64,000 nucleotides of DNA from Chitinophagales bacterium (lineage in GTDB: Bacteria > Bacteroidota > Bacteroidia > Chitinophagales > JADIYW01). The stretch spans positions 62,001-126,000 of the forward strand of contig JAIBAX010000005.1 in the NCBI GenBank assembly GCA_019694955.1, given 5' to 3'. The notes beneath the pieces were generated by a model. That model had not been told where the DNA came from, ran no database searches, and saw only the letters and a list, made by a program, of their open reading frames with translations. Below, piece by piece: positions 1,379 through 7,947 of the stretch (the first letter of the stretch is position 1; every line of letters begins with the position of its first letter). The translations under genes were made by a program, and so were the position numbers.

Positions 1379-2541
1379 AGTTCCAACCGTTTTATTCTTT
1401 GAAGGGCTTCCTGCAACATTGATTCCGGGCTACACAGTGAAATCCTGAGGTATCTGGCACCATTACTGCCGAAAATAAAGCCTGGTGTAATAAATACATC
1501 TGCATCATACAAAATAATATCTGCCAACTCACCGCTATCTTTATAAGAATCGGGAATTTTCGCCCATAAAAACATGCCTACTTGATGCTTGTCATATCTA
1601 CATTGTAAGGCATCCATGATGGCATAAGCCAATTCTCTTCGCTGTTCATACACTTTGTTACGCTCCTGATGCCAAGTGGATGTGTTCCTTAGTGCGCTCA
1701 CTGCGGCTTCCTGCATAGGCAAAAACATACCGGAATCTACATTGCTCTTTACCTTTAATACTGTTGATATATAATCTTTTGCACCACACAGCATACCGAT
1801 TCTCCAGCCAGCCATATTATGTGATTTGCTCAAAGAATTGAGTTCCAAACATACTTCTTTACTGCCTTCTACTTGAAATATGCTGACGGGTTTCCCTTCA
1901 TTTAAGACTAAACTATATGGGTTGTCATTCACTACAAGAATGCTGTATTTATTGGCAATTTCTATAACTTTTTCAAACATGGCCATATCTCCCTTACTAC
2001 CTGTAGGCATGTTGGGATAATTGATCCACAGGAGTTTAGCATCCTTTAGGTCTTGTTCTGAAATTTGGGCAAAATCCGGTTCCCAGAGATTCGTTTCTGA
2101 CAAATTATAATATATGGGAATGCCTCCTGCCAGCCTGGTAGCCGATTCATAGGTAGGATAGCCAGGATTAGGAATGAGCACCTTATCACCGGGATTTATA
2201 AATGCCTGAGATATATGTGTAATACCTTCCTTTGAACCCAGAAGTGGCAATACTTCTGTTTCCGGATCTAGCAAGGCATCATAGGTTTCTATATACCATT
2301 GTGACATAGCTTGACGCAGTGCCGGAATACCAATATAGCTCTGGTAACCATGTGAATCGTGCCTTTGTGCCGCTGCCACTAATGCCTCAATGGTCTCAGA
2401 AGACGGTGTCATGTCTGGATTTCCGATGCCGAGATTTAGCACGGGTTTCCCTTGCAAAATCAGTTCTCTGATTTCCTTCAGTTTACGCGAGAAGTAATAC
2501 TCGTTAACGAACGACAATTTATGTGCTGCTTCTATGATCAT
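1375..2541 (-). CDS. Class I/II pyridoxal-phosphate aminotransferase
   Basis: A 388-residue fold type I aminotransferase. Visible landmarks are LNLGIGNPDMTPS near the N-terminus, the NYPNMPTGS segment and LNSLSKSHNMAGWRIG, in which the lysine of SLSKS is the expected pyridoxal-phosphate Schiff base. Similar genes in this phylum are often called aspartate or LL-diaminopimelate aminotransferase. Between pheA and tyrA the likely role is transamination of phenylpyruvate or hydroxyphenylpyruvate, or of prephenate; the substrate cannot be read from sequence. It overlaps pheA and tyrA by 4 bp at its two ends. Confidence 0.9.
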   Translation of the reverse strand: MIIEAAHKLSFVNEYYFSRKLKEIRELILQGKPVLNLGIGNPDMTPSSETIEALVAAAQRHDSHGYQSYIGIPALRQAMSQWYIETYDALLDPETEVLPLLGSKEGITHISQAFINPGDKVLIPNPGYPTYESATRLAGGIPIYYNLSETNLWEPDFAQISEQDLKDAKLLWINYPNMPTGSKGDMAMFEKVIEIANKYSILVVNDNPYSLVLNEGKPVSIFQVEGSKEVCLELNSLSKSHNMAGWRIGMLCGAKDYISTVLKVKSNVDSGMFLPMQEAAVSALRNTSTWHQERNKVYEQRRELAYAIMDALQCRYDKHQVGMFLWAKIPDSYKDSGELADIILYDADVFITPGFIFGSNGARYLRISLCSPESMLQEALQRIKRLEL

Positions 2542-3389
2542 AATACCTTTTCTCCTTGTTTATATTCACCTAAAATCGCCAAATCAATGACCAAATCTGC
2601 GATGGCTGTTTTCATGTGTTGATAGGCATCGTAACTGTCAAACTCGAGGTCGCAATAAAAAAAATACACCCATTCCATTCCCAAAACCGGCAAGCTCATT
2701 ATTTTGGTGAGGTTCATGCCATGATTTCCCATGATGGTAAGAATTTTTGCCAGACTACCCGGTTGGTGCTGGCTTCTAAAAGACAATGAGGCTTTATTGG
2801 GGATATCAATTTCTATCGGGGCGTTGTCTTCACGTCTTTTCAACGCTAAAAACCTGGTGAAGTTGCGTTTATTGGTTTCAATACTTGGTGCCACTATATC
2901 CAAGCCAAAGAGTTCCGCAGCACGTTGGCTTCCGAGCGCCCCCCGCCCTTTGATATGATGTTCTTTTATTTCTTGAGCACTTAATGCTGTGTCATTGGAT
3001 TCTACCAACTGAATGTGTGGATATTTTCTAAAATACTCTGTACACTGTAAAATCGCCATTGGATGAGAGTGGACTTCTTCAATGTCGTTGATGGTTTGAC
3101 CTTTCAGCGCCATTAGATTCATTTCTATCCGAAGATATACTTCTCCGAATATTTCCAAGTCATACTCCCTAAGTCGGGCGTAATTAGGAAGGATAGAACC
3201 TGCCACCGTATTTTCTATTGCACAAATGGCATAGCGAGCCTTCTTCTTAGCGATTCCGTCAAATAGTTTTTGAAAGGTATCGCATTCATAGGTATCTACT
3301 GCCTTATTAAAAAATTTAAAGGCAGCGATCTCATGGAATGAGCCTTGAAAACCTTGTATTGCAATTCTATCTTTCATCGTTAGCGCCAT
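2538..3389 (-). CDS. pheA: Prephenate dehydratase with ACT domain
   Basis: Converts prephenate to phenylpyruvate, the committed phenylalanine step. The 283 residues hold a dehydratase domain with the catalytic segment KRNFTRFLAL, then an ACT domain (SLSFRSQHQPGSLAKILTIM, then NLTKIMSLPV) expected to bind phenylalanine for feedback. The ATG at 3389 lies directly after the U-tract of the upstream terminator; an in-frame ATG at 3377 (MKDRIAIQG) is an equally credible start because the protein core begins there. It is the first structural gene of the operon and lies behind an aromatic leader peptide. Confidence 0.95.
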   Translation of the reverse strand: MALTMKDRIAIQGFQGSFHEIAAFKFFNKAVDTYECDTFQKLFDGIAKKKARYAICAIENTVAGSILPNYARLREYDLEIFGEVYLRIEMNLMALKGQTINDIEEVHSHPMAILQCTEYFRKYPHIQLVESNDTALSAQEIKEHHIKGRGALGSQRAAELFGLDIVAPSIETNKRNFTRFLALKRREDNAPIEIDIPNKASLSFRSQHQPGSLAKILTIMGNHGMNLTKIMSLPVLGMEWVYFFYCDLEFDSYDAYQHMKTAIADLVIDLAILGEYKQGEKVL

Positions 3390-3390
3390 T

Positions 3391-3422
3391 AAAAAAAAAG
3401 TCCCGGTTTTTGACCGAGACTT
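3391..3422 (-). terminator. Attenuator terminator of the pheA operon
   Basis: On the minus strand, arms at 3413-3422 and 3398-3407 form a 10 bp stem with one G-U pair and a 5-base loop, followed by a run of T to 3391. It ends right before the pheA start, so it can only act as a conditional terminator. Its 5' arm (3414-3420) can instead pair with 3454-3460, seven pairs including two G-U, inside the last codons of the leader peptide. A ribosome waiting at the leader stop would cover that segment; one stalled on the Phe/Tyr codons would leave it free. Confidence 0.88.
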
Positions 3423-3446
3423 TCATGTATATTTTTGCATACAGCA

Positions 3447-3506
3447 CTACTTCGCCCCGGAAATTCCAGTCCAAAAGTAAAAGCCATAATAAAACAAACC
3501 ATTCAT
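3447..3506 (-). CDS. Leader peptide of the aromatic amino acid operon
   Basis: A 19-codon ORF reading MNGLFYYGFYFWTGISGAK then TAG. Seven of residues 5-12 are aromatic (Phe, Tyr, Tyr, Phe, Tyr, Phe, Trp), as expected for a peptide that senses charged tRNA(Phe) and tRNA(Tyr). It lies 57 bp upstream of pheA and directly ahead of a terminator that overlaps the operon leader. Function is inferred from composition and position; the family logic is that of classical pheL/trpL attenuation. Confidence 0.85.
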   Translation of the reverse strand: MNGLFYYGFYFWTGISGAK

Positions 3507-3513
3507 GATGAAG

Positions 3514-3544
3514 CAAAGAAAAGCATAGTTTATTACAAATGCAA
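3514..3544 (-). promoter_or_regulatory. Promoter of the pheA operon
   Basis: On the minus strand TTG (3544-3542), a 20 bp spacer, then TTTCTTTG (3521-3514), one mismatch from the Bacteroidota -7 consensus TAnnTTTG. The expected start of transcription is only a few bases before the leader ATG at 3506. Confidence 0.5.
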
Positions 3545-3627
3545 CCTTTTTTCTGTTAATTCATTATTAATTGACTAAAAAAATGCATTAGGGATAGAAG
3601 CGTGTACCATGTACAGCGGATAGCCCG

Positions 3628-3663
3628 ACCCACTCACTCAATTTAAAGAATTGAGTGAGCGGG
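3628..3663. repeat. Inverted repeat
   Basis: Arms CTCACTCAATT (3633-3643) and AATTGAGTGAG (3649-3659) pair perfectly around a 5-base spacer; three more C-G pairs follow outside one mismatch. It has no U-tract, so it is not a clear terminator. The stretch 3545-3843 otherwise contains only this hairpin and the next repeat and no convincing gene. Confidence 0.6.
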
Positions 3664-3708
3664 GAATGCCCTAATTTACCATAGAACTGGGAAGTAGCGA
3701 TGCTTTTA

Positions 3709-3777
3709 TAGATGTGCCACTTTTTCGAAGTACAGATGTGGGTCAGATGTGCCACACTTTCGAAGTGTGGCACATCT
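3709..3777. repeat. REP-like palindrome with a degenerate second copy
   Basis: Positions 3745-3759 and 3763-3777 are perfect 15 bp inverted arms (AGATGTGCCACACTT) around TCG. Just upstream, 3709-3740 shows a decayed copy of the same sequence (gatgtgccac, ttcgaagt, acagatgtg). This is typical of short intergenic palindromic repeats; the function is unknown. Confidence 0.65.
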
Positions 3778-3843
3778 ACAAAAAAATAACACATACATTT
3801 CACCAGAAAATAATATACTTGCAATCCAAAGGGACTTTACAGC

Positions 3844-4707
3844 ATGGAAGAATTGACAGAAAAGGTATTTAAGGATAAGGCTTTCTCCTCTGATTCTGAA
3901 AAATTAGGTTATTGTGACACGCAATACCCCCTTATTCTTGTGAGTGGAATGGGATTCAAAGAGCATAATTTTATTCTTAACTATTGGGGTACTATACCGG
4001 ATTATTTGAAAAGCCATGGAGCAGAGGTATATACAGCCAATCAGGATGCATTTTGTGGTCATGTAGAGAACGCTATGAAGTTAAAGAAACGCATTAATGA
4101 CATTTTGAATAAGACGGGAAAAGAAAAAATAAACATTATTGCCCACTCCAAAGGTGGTATTGAGGCACGCTATATGGTTTCGAAATTAAACATGGGTTCA
4201 AAAACCGCTAGCCTAACAACGATTGGAAGTCCGCACCATGGCTCCGGATTGGCTGATATTATTGTCGGCAAGATACCTATCGGGCGTTTTGCGGCGGCAC
4301 GTTTAGTGAACATCTATGCGATGTTAATGGGTGACCGCAGACCTGATAGCTTGCGTGCGGTTGTACAAGTTACCACGGAAGCTATGAAGCGCTTTAATAA
4401 GGAAGTGGAAAATCATCCAGATGTCTATTATCAAAGCTATGCCAGTCATGTCAACAAGCAATATCCTAATATTATGTGGAGAACTATGGCCGGGTTATTG
4501 TATGTTTCAGATGGAAAAAATGATGGTATTGTTTCGATTGAGTCCGCGAAATGGGGGAATTATCAGGGGTTGATACAAACGGAAGCATCACCGAGCATCA
4601 ATCATGCCGACCAGGTGGGGTTGACACAATTTTCCGGCAATTTAGCTTTTGACGCGCATAATTTCTATTTGGAGTTAGTGCGGGCATTAAAAACTGCTGG
4701 TCATTAG
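3844..4707 (+). CDS. Triacylglycerol lipase-like alpha/beta hydrolase
   Basis: A 287-residue esterase/lipase. PLILVSGMGF forms the strand and oxyanion region, IIAHSKGGIEARY the nucleophile elbow with Ser102, then ASLTTIGSPHHGS, typical of lipases that act on acyl esters. A late Asp in SDGKNDGIVS and a late His in SINHADQVG complete a plausible triad. No signal peptide or membrane segment is visible, so it may be cytoplasmic. It stands alone before ogt. The substrate cannot be assigned. Confidence 0.85.
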   Translation: MEELTEKVFKDKAFSSDSEKLGYCDTQYPLILVSGMGFKEHNFILNYWGTIPDYLKSHGAEVYTANQDAFCGHVENAMKLKKRINDILNKTGKEKINIIAHSKGGIEARYMVSKLNMGSKTASLTTIGSPHHGSGLADIIVGKIPIGRFAAARLVNIYAMLMGDRRPDSLRAVVQVTTEAMKRFNKEVENHPDVYYQSYASHVNKQYPNIMWRTMAGLLYVSDGKNDGIVSIESAKWGNYQGLIQTEASPSINHADQVGLTQFSGNLAFDAHNFYLELVRALKTAGH

Positions 4708-4759
4708 TTTATTGGCAAAAGACATACTGTTTTAAACAATCATTTTGTATCTTTCCTCA

Positions 4760-5251
4760 ATGAATCCAGATTTGTACCTATTTCGGATGGACACGCCCTT
4801 AAAACCTTTAGAAATTGTCCATAATGGTACATTTTTAATGTATATCAATTTTTGTGATGTAGTAGTGGAACCAAAAACCTGTGACCATCCTTTATCCGTT
4901 GAGATACAACTGCAACTGGACGCTTACTTCCGACATGAATTATCGGTATTTAACCTTCCTTTACAACCCTATGGTACAGACTTTGAGCAAAAAGTATGGA
5001 AAGAATTGGAGAAAATACCATTCGGCAAGACGTATTCCTATAAAGACCTGGCATTAAAGATGGGTTCTGTCACCTACACACGCGCTGTGGGTTCTGCGAA
5101 CGGCAAAAATCCAATACCGATAATTATACCATGTCATCGTGTGATTGGCAACAAAGGTCAGTTGACAGGCTTTTCCGGTGGGTTATGGAGAAAGCAATGG
5201 CTGTTGGAGCATGAATTTAATAAAACGCACGGCATACAGCTTCTTTTCTAA
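4760..5251 (+). CDS. ogt: Methylated-DNA--protein-cysteine methyltransferase
   Basis: Direct repair of O6-alkylguanine by transfer of the alkyl group to a cysteine. The active site IIIPCHRVIG holds Cys125 in a protein of 163 residues, preceded by the helix-turn-helix region FGKTYSYKDLALKMGS. The ATG at 4760 is preferred to an upstream TTG at 4745; MDTPLKPLEIV at 4787 is another possible start. An imperfect -7 element (TATCTTTC) ends a few bases before the ATG. Confidence 0.93.
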   Translation: MNPDLYLFRMDTPLKPLEIVHNGTFLMYINFCDVVVEPKTCDHPLSVEIQLQLDAYFRHELSVFNLPLQPYGTDFEQKVWKELEKIPFGKTYSYKDLALKMGSVTYTRAVGSANGKNPIPIIIPCHRVIGNKGQLTGFSGGLWRKQWLLEHEFNKTHGIQLLF

Positions 5252-5278
5252 AAAACCTTCTTTCAAAACAGAAACCTG

Positions 5279-5286
5279 TATATTTG
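5279..5286 (+). promoter_or_regulatory. -7 promoter element TATATTTG
   Basis: A perfect TAnnTTTG element that ends three bases before the ATG at 5290; the permease mRNA would be leaderless or nearly so. No clear TTG -33 box is visible; TTC lies at the right distance. Confidence 0.45.
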
Positions 5287-5289
5287 ACT

Positions 5290-6054
5290 ATGGAAATTTC
5301 CAATTATTTGTTTTTTGAGCCAATGGAATACCTTTGGCTATTTATCTTACTTGCATTACTTGCAGAGGTATTGGGAACGATTGGCGGATTTGGGTCTTCG
5401 CTATTCTTTGTTCCGATAGCGGCCTATTTTCTTGATTTTCATTCCGTTTTAGGCATTACTGCCCTCTTCCACGTTACAAGCAACCTTTCAAAAATCATTC
5501 TCTTTAAGAAAGGATTTGACAAAAACATAGTACTATATTTAGGCATTCCTGCCGTTATATTCGTTGTAATTGGTGCTTACCTAAGTCAATTTGTCCAAAC
5601 AAAAATATTGGAGATACTTCTTTCAGTATTTCTTATTGGCATAAGTCTCTTTTTTCTATTTGCCAAAAAAGTAAATATTCAACCTACTAATAAAAGTTCT
5701 ATTATTGGTGGAACCTTGTCAGGATTTACTGCCGGACTCTTTGGTACAGGTGGTGCAGTAAGAGGAACGATACTTGCAGCCTTTCATTTAAAGAAAGAAG
5801 TTTTTATCGCCACTTCTGCTATCATTGATTTGGCCATTGATTGCAGTAGAAGTGCCGTGTATATTTACAATGGTTATGTCCATAAGCATGATATTTACCT
5901 AATTCCGATTCTTTTCATTGTCAGTATCATTGGCACCTTAATTGGGAAAAAAGTACTGACACATATCTCTGATAAAAGCTTTAGAAATATTGTTCTTGTG
6001 CTTATTCTATTCACCGGAATTACGACCCTTTTCAAGTGGTTTATGAGTACTTAA
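5290..6054 (+). CDS. TauE/SafE family membrane permease
   Basis: A 254-residue hydrophobic protein with about eight predicted membrane segments in two halves. Each half carries a glycine-rich loop, VLGTIGGFGSSLFFVP near residue 30 and SGFTAGLFGTGGAVRG near residue 148, the internal repeat typical of the TauE/SafE (sulfite or organosulfur exporter) family. The ATG at 5290 is preferred to a TTG at 5284. Single gene; the transported anion cannot be predicted. Confidence 0.88.
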   Translation: MEISNYLFFEPMEYLWLFILLALLAEVLGTIGGFGSSLFFVPIAAYFLDFHSVLGITALFHVTSNLSKIILFKKGFDKNIVLYLGIPAVIFVVIGAYLSQFVQTKILEILLSVFLIGISLFFLFAKKVNIQPTNKSSIIGGTLSGFTAGLFGTGGAVRGTILAAFHLKKEVFIATSAIIDLAIDCSRSAVYIYNGYVHKHDIYLIPILFIVSIIGTLIGKKVLTHISDKSFRNIVLVLILFTGITTLFKWFMST

Positions 6055-6141
6055 TCATACCGACAACTCACCAAAAACAAGTATTTAACATATTTTAGCA
6101 GAATTTTATTAGAAATTCGCGTGGTATATCCAAAACTGTTG

Positions 6142-6200
6142 TATATTTGCATCGAGGGGTTTTTTTATTTTGGGGAAGCTGCAATGGCTTCCCCTTTTTT
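6142..6200 (+). ncRNA. Putative tiny RNA, copy 1 (promoter plus terminator unit)
   Basis: TATATTTG (6142-6149) is followed by a short purine-rich start and a U-rich stretch, then an 8 bp perfect stem GGGGAAGC/GCTTCCCC (6172-6179 and 6187-6194) with a 7-base loop and six T. If transcription starts about 5 bases after the -7 element the RNA would be about 45-50 nt. A second copy lies exactly 380 bp downstream with one mismatch over 61 bp. A small ORF crosses it, but the single difference between copies changes the amino acid and the hairpin is kept, so an RNA is more likely. No good -33 TTG precedes copy 1. Confidence 0.6.
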
Positions 6201-6498
6201 ATTAAAAAAAATCAGGAACTGCCAACTCCATTTTTCCGTGAACTGTTTTTTGCCACGAATGCACGAACGACATTGCTATCGACGCTTGATTTGGTCTTTT
6301 AATAGGTTGATTCTTTGAACAAATACCTACAAACATTTCTCCTCAAGGCAAAAAACTTCTACCGAATATTCGTTATCAGCACCACACATTGGAATATAAA
6401 TATAATAAAAGTATAAATTTATTTAAATAATTAAGCATTAATAATCAATAGATTAAAATAAAAAATCAAATTTATATATAATTTTTTGAAAAATTATT

Positions 6499-6580
6499 TT
6501 GACATATCATTTATATTGATGTATATTTGCACCGAGGGGTTTTTTTATTTTGGGGAAGCTGCAATGGCTTCCCCTTTTTT
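6499..6580 (+). ncRNA. Putative tiny RNA, copy 2 (with complete promoter)
   Basis: TTG at 6499-6501, a 20 bp spacer and TATATTTG at 6522-6529 form a full Bacteroidota promoter. It is followed by the same U-rich leader and GGGGAAGC/GCTTCCCC terminator (6552-6574, T-run to 6580) as copy 1. The 61 bp core 6521-6581 differs from 6141-6201 at one position (C for T). The DNA between the copies (6201-6520) is very AT-rich and holds no gene that I can see apart from a 19 bp dispersed repeat (6247-6265) shared with 47897-47915. Confidence 0.65.
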
Positions 6581-6594
6581 ATACTATAATTTTC

Positions 6595-7104
6595 TTATAA
6601 AAACATTCCAAACAACATTAAGGGTGTATCATCACCGGGAAAGACGATTTCCCGTTCATATTTCATTCCGATTTTCTCTAATAAGTGTTGACTTGAGTAA
6701 TTGTCCCTAGTGGTTATTGCAACAAGTCTTTCCATCTGAAGGTTCTTTTGGGTATAATTTAGCACAGACATGGCCGATTCAAAGCCGTAGCCTTTTCCTT
6801 CAAATTCAGGAAGAAACGCAAAACCTATGTCTACATCATCCAAAAAATCTCTTTTCACCAATCCGCAAATACCTATCCTTACACCTTCCTTTGTTTCTAC
6901 CATATAAAAACCATATCTTAGCGTATCATAACTTTTAAGAATACCGTTGTCCAAATATTTTTCGGCGTCTTCAACAGTATGCACATTTCTGTTGCCAATA
7001 TACTTAAGCCAATGAGGGGTATTTAGTAAGGTCACAAAGAACGGAGCATCTTCTTTCGTAACTTTCCTAATCTTAAGTCGTTCTGTATGTAAAGACCACT
7101 CCAT
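6595..7104 (-). CDS. GNAT family N-acetyltransferase (RimJ/RimL-like)
   Basis: A 169-residue acetyltransferase. LHTERLKIRKVTKEDAPFF is the usual RimJ/RimL N-terminus, IGICGLVKRDFLDDVDIGF the central strands and LPEFEGKGYGFESAMSVL the acetyl-CoA binding loop with a Q/R-x-x-G-x-G/A-like motif. Family members acetylate protein N-termini or small amines; the substrate is unknown. Its 3' end lies 14 bp from the terminator of tiny RNA copy 2. Confidence 0.88.
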   Translation of the reverse strand: MEWSLHTERLKIRKVTKEDAPFFVTLLNTPHWLKYIGNRNVHTVEDAEKYLDNGILKSYDTLRYGFYMVETKEGVRIGICGLVKRDFLDDVDIGFAFLPEFEGKGYGFESAMSVLNYTQKNLQMERLVAITTRDNYSSQHLLEKIGMKYEREIVFPGDDTPLMLFGMFL

Positions 7105-7188
7105 ATACTCAGATTAAGTAAATAAAAATTTTACTAGTATAAAGGTATAAAAAGGAATGATAAAAAACTTATTACTTATATTTCCAAC

Positions 7189-7947
7189 ATGATTACGAAG
7201 CGGATTATTCCTTGTTTGGATATAAAAGACGGGCAAACTGTCAAAGGTATAAATTTTGTAGATCTCCGTTCTGCGGGAGATCCTGTAGAATTGGCAAAAG
7301 CATACGTCTTACAAGGTGCCGATGAGCTCGTATTTCTGGATATCACCGCAACGATAGAAGGAAGAAGAACCTTCGTTGAACTGGTCAAAAAAATTGGTCA
7401 AAACATCAATATACCCTTTACTGTGGGCGGCGGAATTAACAGTATTGAAGATGTAGGCAGACTTTTACAGGCGGGTGCTGATAAGATATCCATAAATTCA
7501 TCAGCGGTAAAAAATCCTACACTTATTGACCAACTCGCTGTCGAGTTCGGTGCACAGTGCGTAGTCATTGCTATAGACTCGAGGTTTCATGAACATGGCT
7601 TCAATGAAGTATATGTTCACGGAGGCAGAACACCCACAGGAATAAATACTATTGAATGGGCTAAAGAAGTACAAGAAAGAGGTGCCGGTGAGATTTTATT
7701 AACATCTATGGATCACGATGGCACCAAGCAAGGTTTTGCTTTAGACATTACTGGCACACTGGCAACCACCTTGAGTATTCCAATTATTGCTTCCGGTGGA
7801 GCAGGAACTAAGGAGCATTTTGAAGAGGTATTTCGCATCACCCAATGTGAAGCCGCATTAGCAGCAAGTGTATTCCACTTTGGAGAAATTCCCATTCCTG
7901 AACTTAAATTTTTTTTAAGAGAAAAAGACATTCCGGTAAGGCTCTAA
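7189..7947 (+). CDS. hisF: Imidazole glycerol phosphate synthase, cyclase subunit
   Basis: With HisH, converts PRFAR and ammonia to IGP and AICAR. The 252 residues form a TIM barrel starting [15 protein letters not shown] with catalytic Asp11, [23 protein letters not shown] with the second catalytic Asp, and [13 protein letters not shown]. It is separated from hisH and hisA by more than 50 kb and stands 193 bp before hisIE. An imperfect -7 element (TATATTTC) ends four bases before the ATG. Confidence 0.96.

Follow-up and report, generated by a model that had tools for sequence, protein, structure and literature searches.

A 66-nt direct repeat in a Chitinophagales bacterium as a candidate pair of genes for a 47-nt small RNA

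Small RNAs built from little more than a short 5' region and a terminator have been described in Bacteroides. In the account given in PMC11697453, the FopS sRNAs consist of a single-stranded 5' stretch followed by a terminator, occur in multiple copies with one 3'-UTR member, and are bound by the RRM protein RbpB; the family is described there as comprising 14 members of about 65–70 nt. The high-confidence intergenic sRNAs of B. thetaiotaomicron, as portrayed in PMC7366714, are intergenic and low in G+C, and have their own start site and an intrinsic terminator. The same source gives the Bacteroidota housekeeping promoter consensus as TTTG around –33 and TAnnTTTG at –7.

Our analysis of a 64,000-nucleotide stretch of DNA from a Chitinophagales bacterium (contig JAIBAX010000005.1, positions 62,001–126,000; hereafter the window) revealed a 66-nt direct repeat, the two copies of which are spaced 380 nt apart and are identical at 64/66 positions (97%; Table 1). 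Each copy is composed of the –7 box TATATTTG, four bases, the sequence GAGGGGTTTTTTTATTTT, a hairpin formed by GGGGAAGC and GCTTCCCC, and T6, and the repeated block starts just before the –7 box and ends at the T tail of the terminator. Folding predicts the same hairpin of 9 bp for both copies (–16.6 kcal/mol, z –2.7). The RNA of copy 2, with its start predicted from the sequence motifs, would span positions 6534–6580 (47 nt) and comprise GAGGGGUUUUUUUAUUUU, the terminator hairpin with a GCAAU loop and U6. The 314 bp between the two repeats are AT-rich and unrelated, and the flanks are unlike each other in 120-nt local alignments, with the scores reached by 155/500 shuffles upstream and by 454/500 shuffles downstream. 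A faint upstream resemblance is possible, since the score over the 40 nt upstream, one of eight shorter global comparisons, was reached by only 15/500 shuffles. An earlier note on this DNA had described two near-identical promoter-to-terminator units 380 bp apart, an unduplicated sequence between them and a complete promoter ahead of copy 2. Our comparison bears out this picture with a block of 66 nt instead of 61, two differences per 66 nt, one of them within the 61, and the reservation about the 40 nt upstream.

Table 1. Features of the repeat locus in window coordinates
Feature	Position	Strand	Basis or remark
TSUP/TauE-like permease ORF	5284..6054	+	translation reading; upstream of copy 1
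Repeat copy 1	6137..6202	+	sequence reading and repeat search
–7 box of copy 1, TATATTTG	6142..6149	+	no TTG at –33 spacing
Predicted single-stranded 5' RNA part of copy 1, GAGGGGTTTTTTTATTTT	6154..6171	+	predicted +1 at G6154
Terminator hairpin of copy 1, GGGGAAGCTGCAATGGCTTCCCC + T6	6172..6200	+	fold; could also end the TSUP gene
–33 element of copy 2, TTTG	6498..6501	+	20 nt before the –7 box
Repeat copy 2	6517..6582	+	sequence reading and repeat search
–7 box of copy 2, TATATTTG	6522..6529	+	sequence motif
Predicted single-stranded 5' RNA part of copy 2	6534..6551	+	predicted +1 at G6534
Terminator hairpin of copy 2 + T6	6552..6580	+	fold and terminator scan
GNAT-like acetyltransferase ORF	6595..7104	–	translation reading; convergent with copy 2

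The candidate family shares with FopS, as described in its source, the single-stranded 5' stretch (here predicted) followed by a terminator, the presence of several copies and a single 3'-UTR member, the last being a third copy downstream of bcp. By comparison, the predicted RNA is shorter, at ~47 nt, and the family is smaller, with three members and no conservation found beyond its own genome. Set beside the canonical sigma-ABfr promoter ascribed to FopS there, the three copies vary: copy 2 carries the full TTTG-N20-TATATTTG motif, a complete match to the Bacteroidota housekeeping consensus, copy 1 carries the –7 box only, with no TTG at –33 spacing, and the bcp copy carries none. Motifs of a promoter and an intrinsic terminator are found together outside genes, complete in copy 2 and without the –33 element in copy 1. 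This is the same build, including the low G+C, as that of the B. thetaiotaomicron intergenic sRNAs in their published description, although theirs derives from measured transcripts and ours from motifs. A scan of the window region 3300–7300 against Rfam with E up to 5 gave no FopS match, in a copy of Rfam that may not hold FopS, and the window contains no Rfam match at the gathering threshold. The element is not named in the literature that we found on small RNAs of Bacteroidota.

The coupling of box and terminator was compared with chance in 478,001 bases of the same genome (the window together with 20 stretches and a 14-kb piece), in which a simple search for terminator-like hairpins returned 35 sites. 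The TATATTTG box lies within 70 nt upstream of 2/35, namely the two copies only, and TAnnTTTG lies within the same distance of 3/35, both copies again and, as the third, the pheA leader, whose match is situated inside leader-peptide codons. Because the sample contains 49 TATATTTG sites, we estimate a chance expectation of ~0.003 boxes per terminator, and the pairing of TATATTTG with a terminator in both copies exceeds chance. As a separate observation, the box also lies 3 nt before an ATG at two genes, in TATATTTGACTATG ahead of the TSUP-like gene (window 5279–5292, plus strand) and in TATATTTGCACATG ahead of guaB (L014 near 6430–6414, minus strand), which suggests that both genes have leaderless mRNAs.

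A third, diverged relative was found in the same genome (C67:8456–8509, minus strand) by Blast and by R1, a covariance model of both window copies (E 2.9e-7). It starts 5 nt past the bcp stop codon and stops short of guaB, a gene preceded by a TATATTTG box of its own. The match begins at GAGGGG, the predicted +1 of the window copies, and contains GAGGGGTTTTTTTATTTTGGGG exactly together with the GCAAT loop, the hairpin and the T tail, without the TATATTTG box and the promoter. Within the predicted RNA, the third copy differs from the window copies by eight substitutions and two inserted bases, all located in the stem arms, so that the 18-nt 5' stretch and the loop are unchanged and the stem is altered yet paired. 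Random placement of eight substitutions over the 48 columns puts all of them in the 18 stem columns with a post hoc p of about 1e-4. Pairing across the three copies is intact in 28/28 counted cells, and three pairs are changed on both sides; by itself this covariation is weak, because it comes from only three sequences and is reached by 25/500 shuffles. Furthermore, stem changes that preserve pairing are expected of any terminator and count against the small-RNA reading. The confinement of the third copy to just the predicted RNA, for its part, supports the putative promoter-to-terminator transcript.

The main rival explanation, less likely but quite possible and to be taken seriously, needs no regulatory RNA of its own and holds that a strong terminator was duplicated or reused: copy 1 would end the TSUP gene, the third copy would end bcp and copy 2 would be a spare that arose by a short duplication. 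An older terminator, lying in tandem with the hairpin, would have contributed GAGGGG and the T-run as its right half. The copies can be read in this way because copy 1 follows TSUP and the third copy follows bcp; the hairpin of copy 1 is 118 nt past the TSUP-like stop codon, with no other terminator-like site in between. Moreover, GAGGGGTTTTTTTATTTT is often found as the end of a terminator. Among the matches listed, a CCCCTC-like left arm is present at most 45 nt upstream in 52/80 public-genome loci, and an 18-mer search of public genomes returned matches in many phyla, mostly at ordinary terminator ends. Recent duplications or assembly repeats do occur in this genome, since it has a perfect 5.6-kb tandem duplication elsewhere. 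However, neither window copy has a CCCCTC-like left arm, and the copied block includes a –7 box, which a duplicated terminator would not require, to which copy 2 adds a full promoter. That the stem was rewritten while the 18-nt 5' stretch and the loop stayed constant is likewise the opposite of what a pure terminator needs. The tandem duplication itself (L175, C57:40001–60000) measures ~5.57 kb, is exact over 5,573 bases with a spacing of 5,571, and may be very recent or an assembly artefact.

Searches beyond this genome returned no convincing further copy. With R1, matches at E ≤ 0.01 were obtained in 6/396 genomes of the order, three of the matches in the own genome and one weak match in each of five others (E 0.003–0.008, about the chance level for 395 genomes), and a strong match in 0/395 other genomes. 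The 22-mer GAGGGGTTTTTTTATTTTGGGG with up to two mismatches was present in 2/395 genomes of the class, with three exact sites in the own genome and a single two-mismatch site in the other; the same 22-mer read backwards as a control gave three sites in two genomes, none of them in the own genome. A bcp gene was located in ten of the 12 other genomes from the same family, and 0/10 have the unit downstream of it. The R2 search over 38 relatives gave a match at E ≤ 1 in 17/38, the best outside the own genome at 0.061, and 14 inspected loci of the 30 R2 matches outside the own genome held no copy of the unit and were mostly ordinary hairpins. Blast found a match in 4/60 relatives, the own genome included, and no such unit was seen downstream of TSUP in the portions inspected of two relatives. 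The best outsider, in a genome of the same order (G058), has CCGAGGGGTTTTTTTATTTTAAGGAAGC, that is the 5' stretch and GAAGC, without a hairpin and between apparent rpsJ (S10) and rplC (L3) genes. This site (L010 / L045, near 1503–1530 and 2004–2031, minus strand) may be chance, a relic or unexplained.

The nearest relatives searched are distant (HisF 60–72% identical), and the set holds no other genome of the genus. Because of this distance, and with the genus represented by the own genome alone, youth of the family and its loss elsewhere are indistinguishable; the lack of an orthologue in relatives means that long-term selection cannot be shown. As judged from the sequences, the family is probably young and lineage-specific, in a genus represented by this one genome. 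The strong conservation reported in the earlier note applies to the copies inside one genome and does not extend beyond it. Its suggested covariance search yielded the third copy in the own genome and nothing convincing in relatives, and its predicted RNA of 45–50 nt fits the sequence and is shared by the third copy; the lack of further copies in the relatives searched tells partly against it by the note's own criterion.

The same searches bear on a decidedly unlikely DNA-level explanation, in which a protein binds the 22-mer as a site, or in which a lost insert with att-like ends left the direct repeats behind as scars. The exact occurrence of GAGGGGTTTTTTTATTTTGGGG at three places of its own genome, set beside the one two-mismatch site in 394 other genomes of the class, would suit such a site, and the unrelated AT-rich DNA flanked by the repeats would suit such scars; however, the repeat has the same boundaries as a transcription unit, all three copies retain the hairpin and T tail, plasmids gave no match and viral contigs gave 0 exact 22-mers. 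A link to phages was considered from three phage records matching over 28 bases (E 0.04) and was rejected, as the site, the only kind of phage match found, is part of a coding gene and lacks the stem. A mobile repeat or MITE was likewise rejected, since the unit occupies only three genomic places and has no shared element ends.

The best reading, to which we give about an even chance, is that each copy is a gene of its own for a small RNA of ~47 nt and that the two form a three-member family with the bcp 3'-UTR member. Such genes would be transcribed from a Bacteroidota-type housekeeping promoter at the predicted start. The working part would most likely be the constant single-stranded G/U-rich 5' stretch, perhaps with the loop, and the hairpin would mainly end and protect the RNA. 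The 5' stretch may bind an RNA-binding protein, plausibly one of two RRM proteins, or pair with mRNAs. Hfq gave 0 matches in the own genome by a search that was positive in 5/14 control genomes, and RRM_1 gave two matches above the cut-off, one of them a protein of 140 residues with a glycine-rich tail. When the 5' stretch was compared with 326 translation-start regions from a sample of about 12% of the genome, it paired worse with them than with gene interiors (mean –7.33 versus –8.51 kcal/mol); shuffled seeds behaved similarly, and the best site (–15.6) was not better than the mean best of the shuffles (–16.4). Within this sample, no start-region targets like those described for FopS are predicted for the locus, and binding by the two RRM_1 proteins of its own genome is putative. 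Protein binding or sponging appears a little likelier than mRNA pairing, because RbpB binds the like-built FopS and the start-region pairing search gave nothing above control.

A more specific version of the small-RNA reading, which we consider rather unlikely, is that of a newborn family, in which the bcp 3'-UTR terminator would have gained a promoter and been duplicated into two 47-nt genes acting as a sponge for an RRM protein in the absence of Hfq. Apart from its terminator, a gene of this kind would contain little but a G/U-rich stretch for protein binding. If expressed, the copies would represent very small sRNA genes of Bacteroidota, each reaching from promoter to terminator, and would illustrate how sRNA families may arise from 3'-UTR terminators in an Hfq-less lineage, where descriptions of RRM proteins as partners of sRNAs have only begun to appear. 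If they are not expressed, they would caution that a copied terminator and a chance –7 box mimic an sRNA gene.

The remaining explanation, a translated aromatic leader peptide in the frame EGFFYFGEAAMASPF, is hardly credible: both copies do hold a Phe/Tyr-rich frame and the window has a genuine-looking Phe/Tyr leader before pheA, but the frame crosses the –7 box, lacks a start codon anywhere from the predicted +1 to the Phe run, reads GAMCNT-stop in the third copy and is followed after copy 2 by no codirectional gene before hisF, the next ORF being convergent. A translated frame, which the earlier note had weighed against a non-coding RNA, is for these reasons not borne out. The Phe_leader attenuators (Rfam RF01859) are alike in their Phe/Tyr codons before a terminator, whereas the copies have neither a start codon after the promoter nor a codirectional gene directly downstream. 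The RF01859 model matches the pheA leader only, full-length but weakly, at 27.8 bits (gathering 55). This leader encodes the peptide MNGLFYYGFYFWTGISGAK (window 3506–3447, minus strand), has a terminator near 3420–3400 (minus strand) just before pheA, and is likely a classical attenuator.
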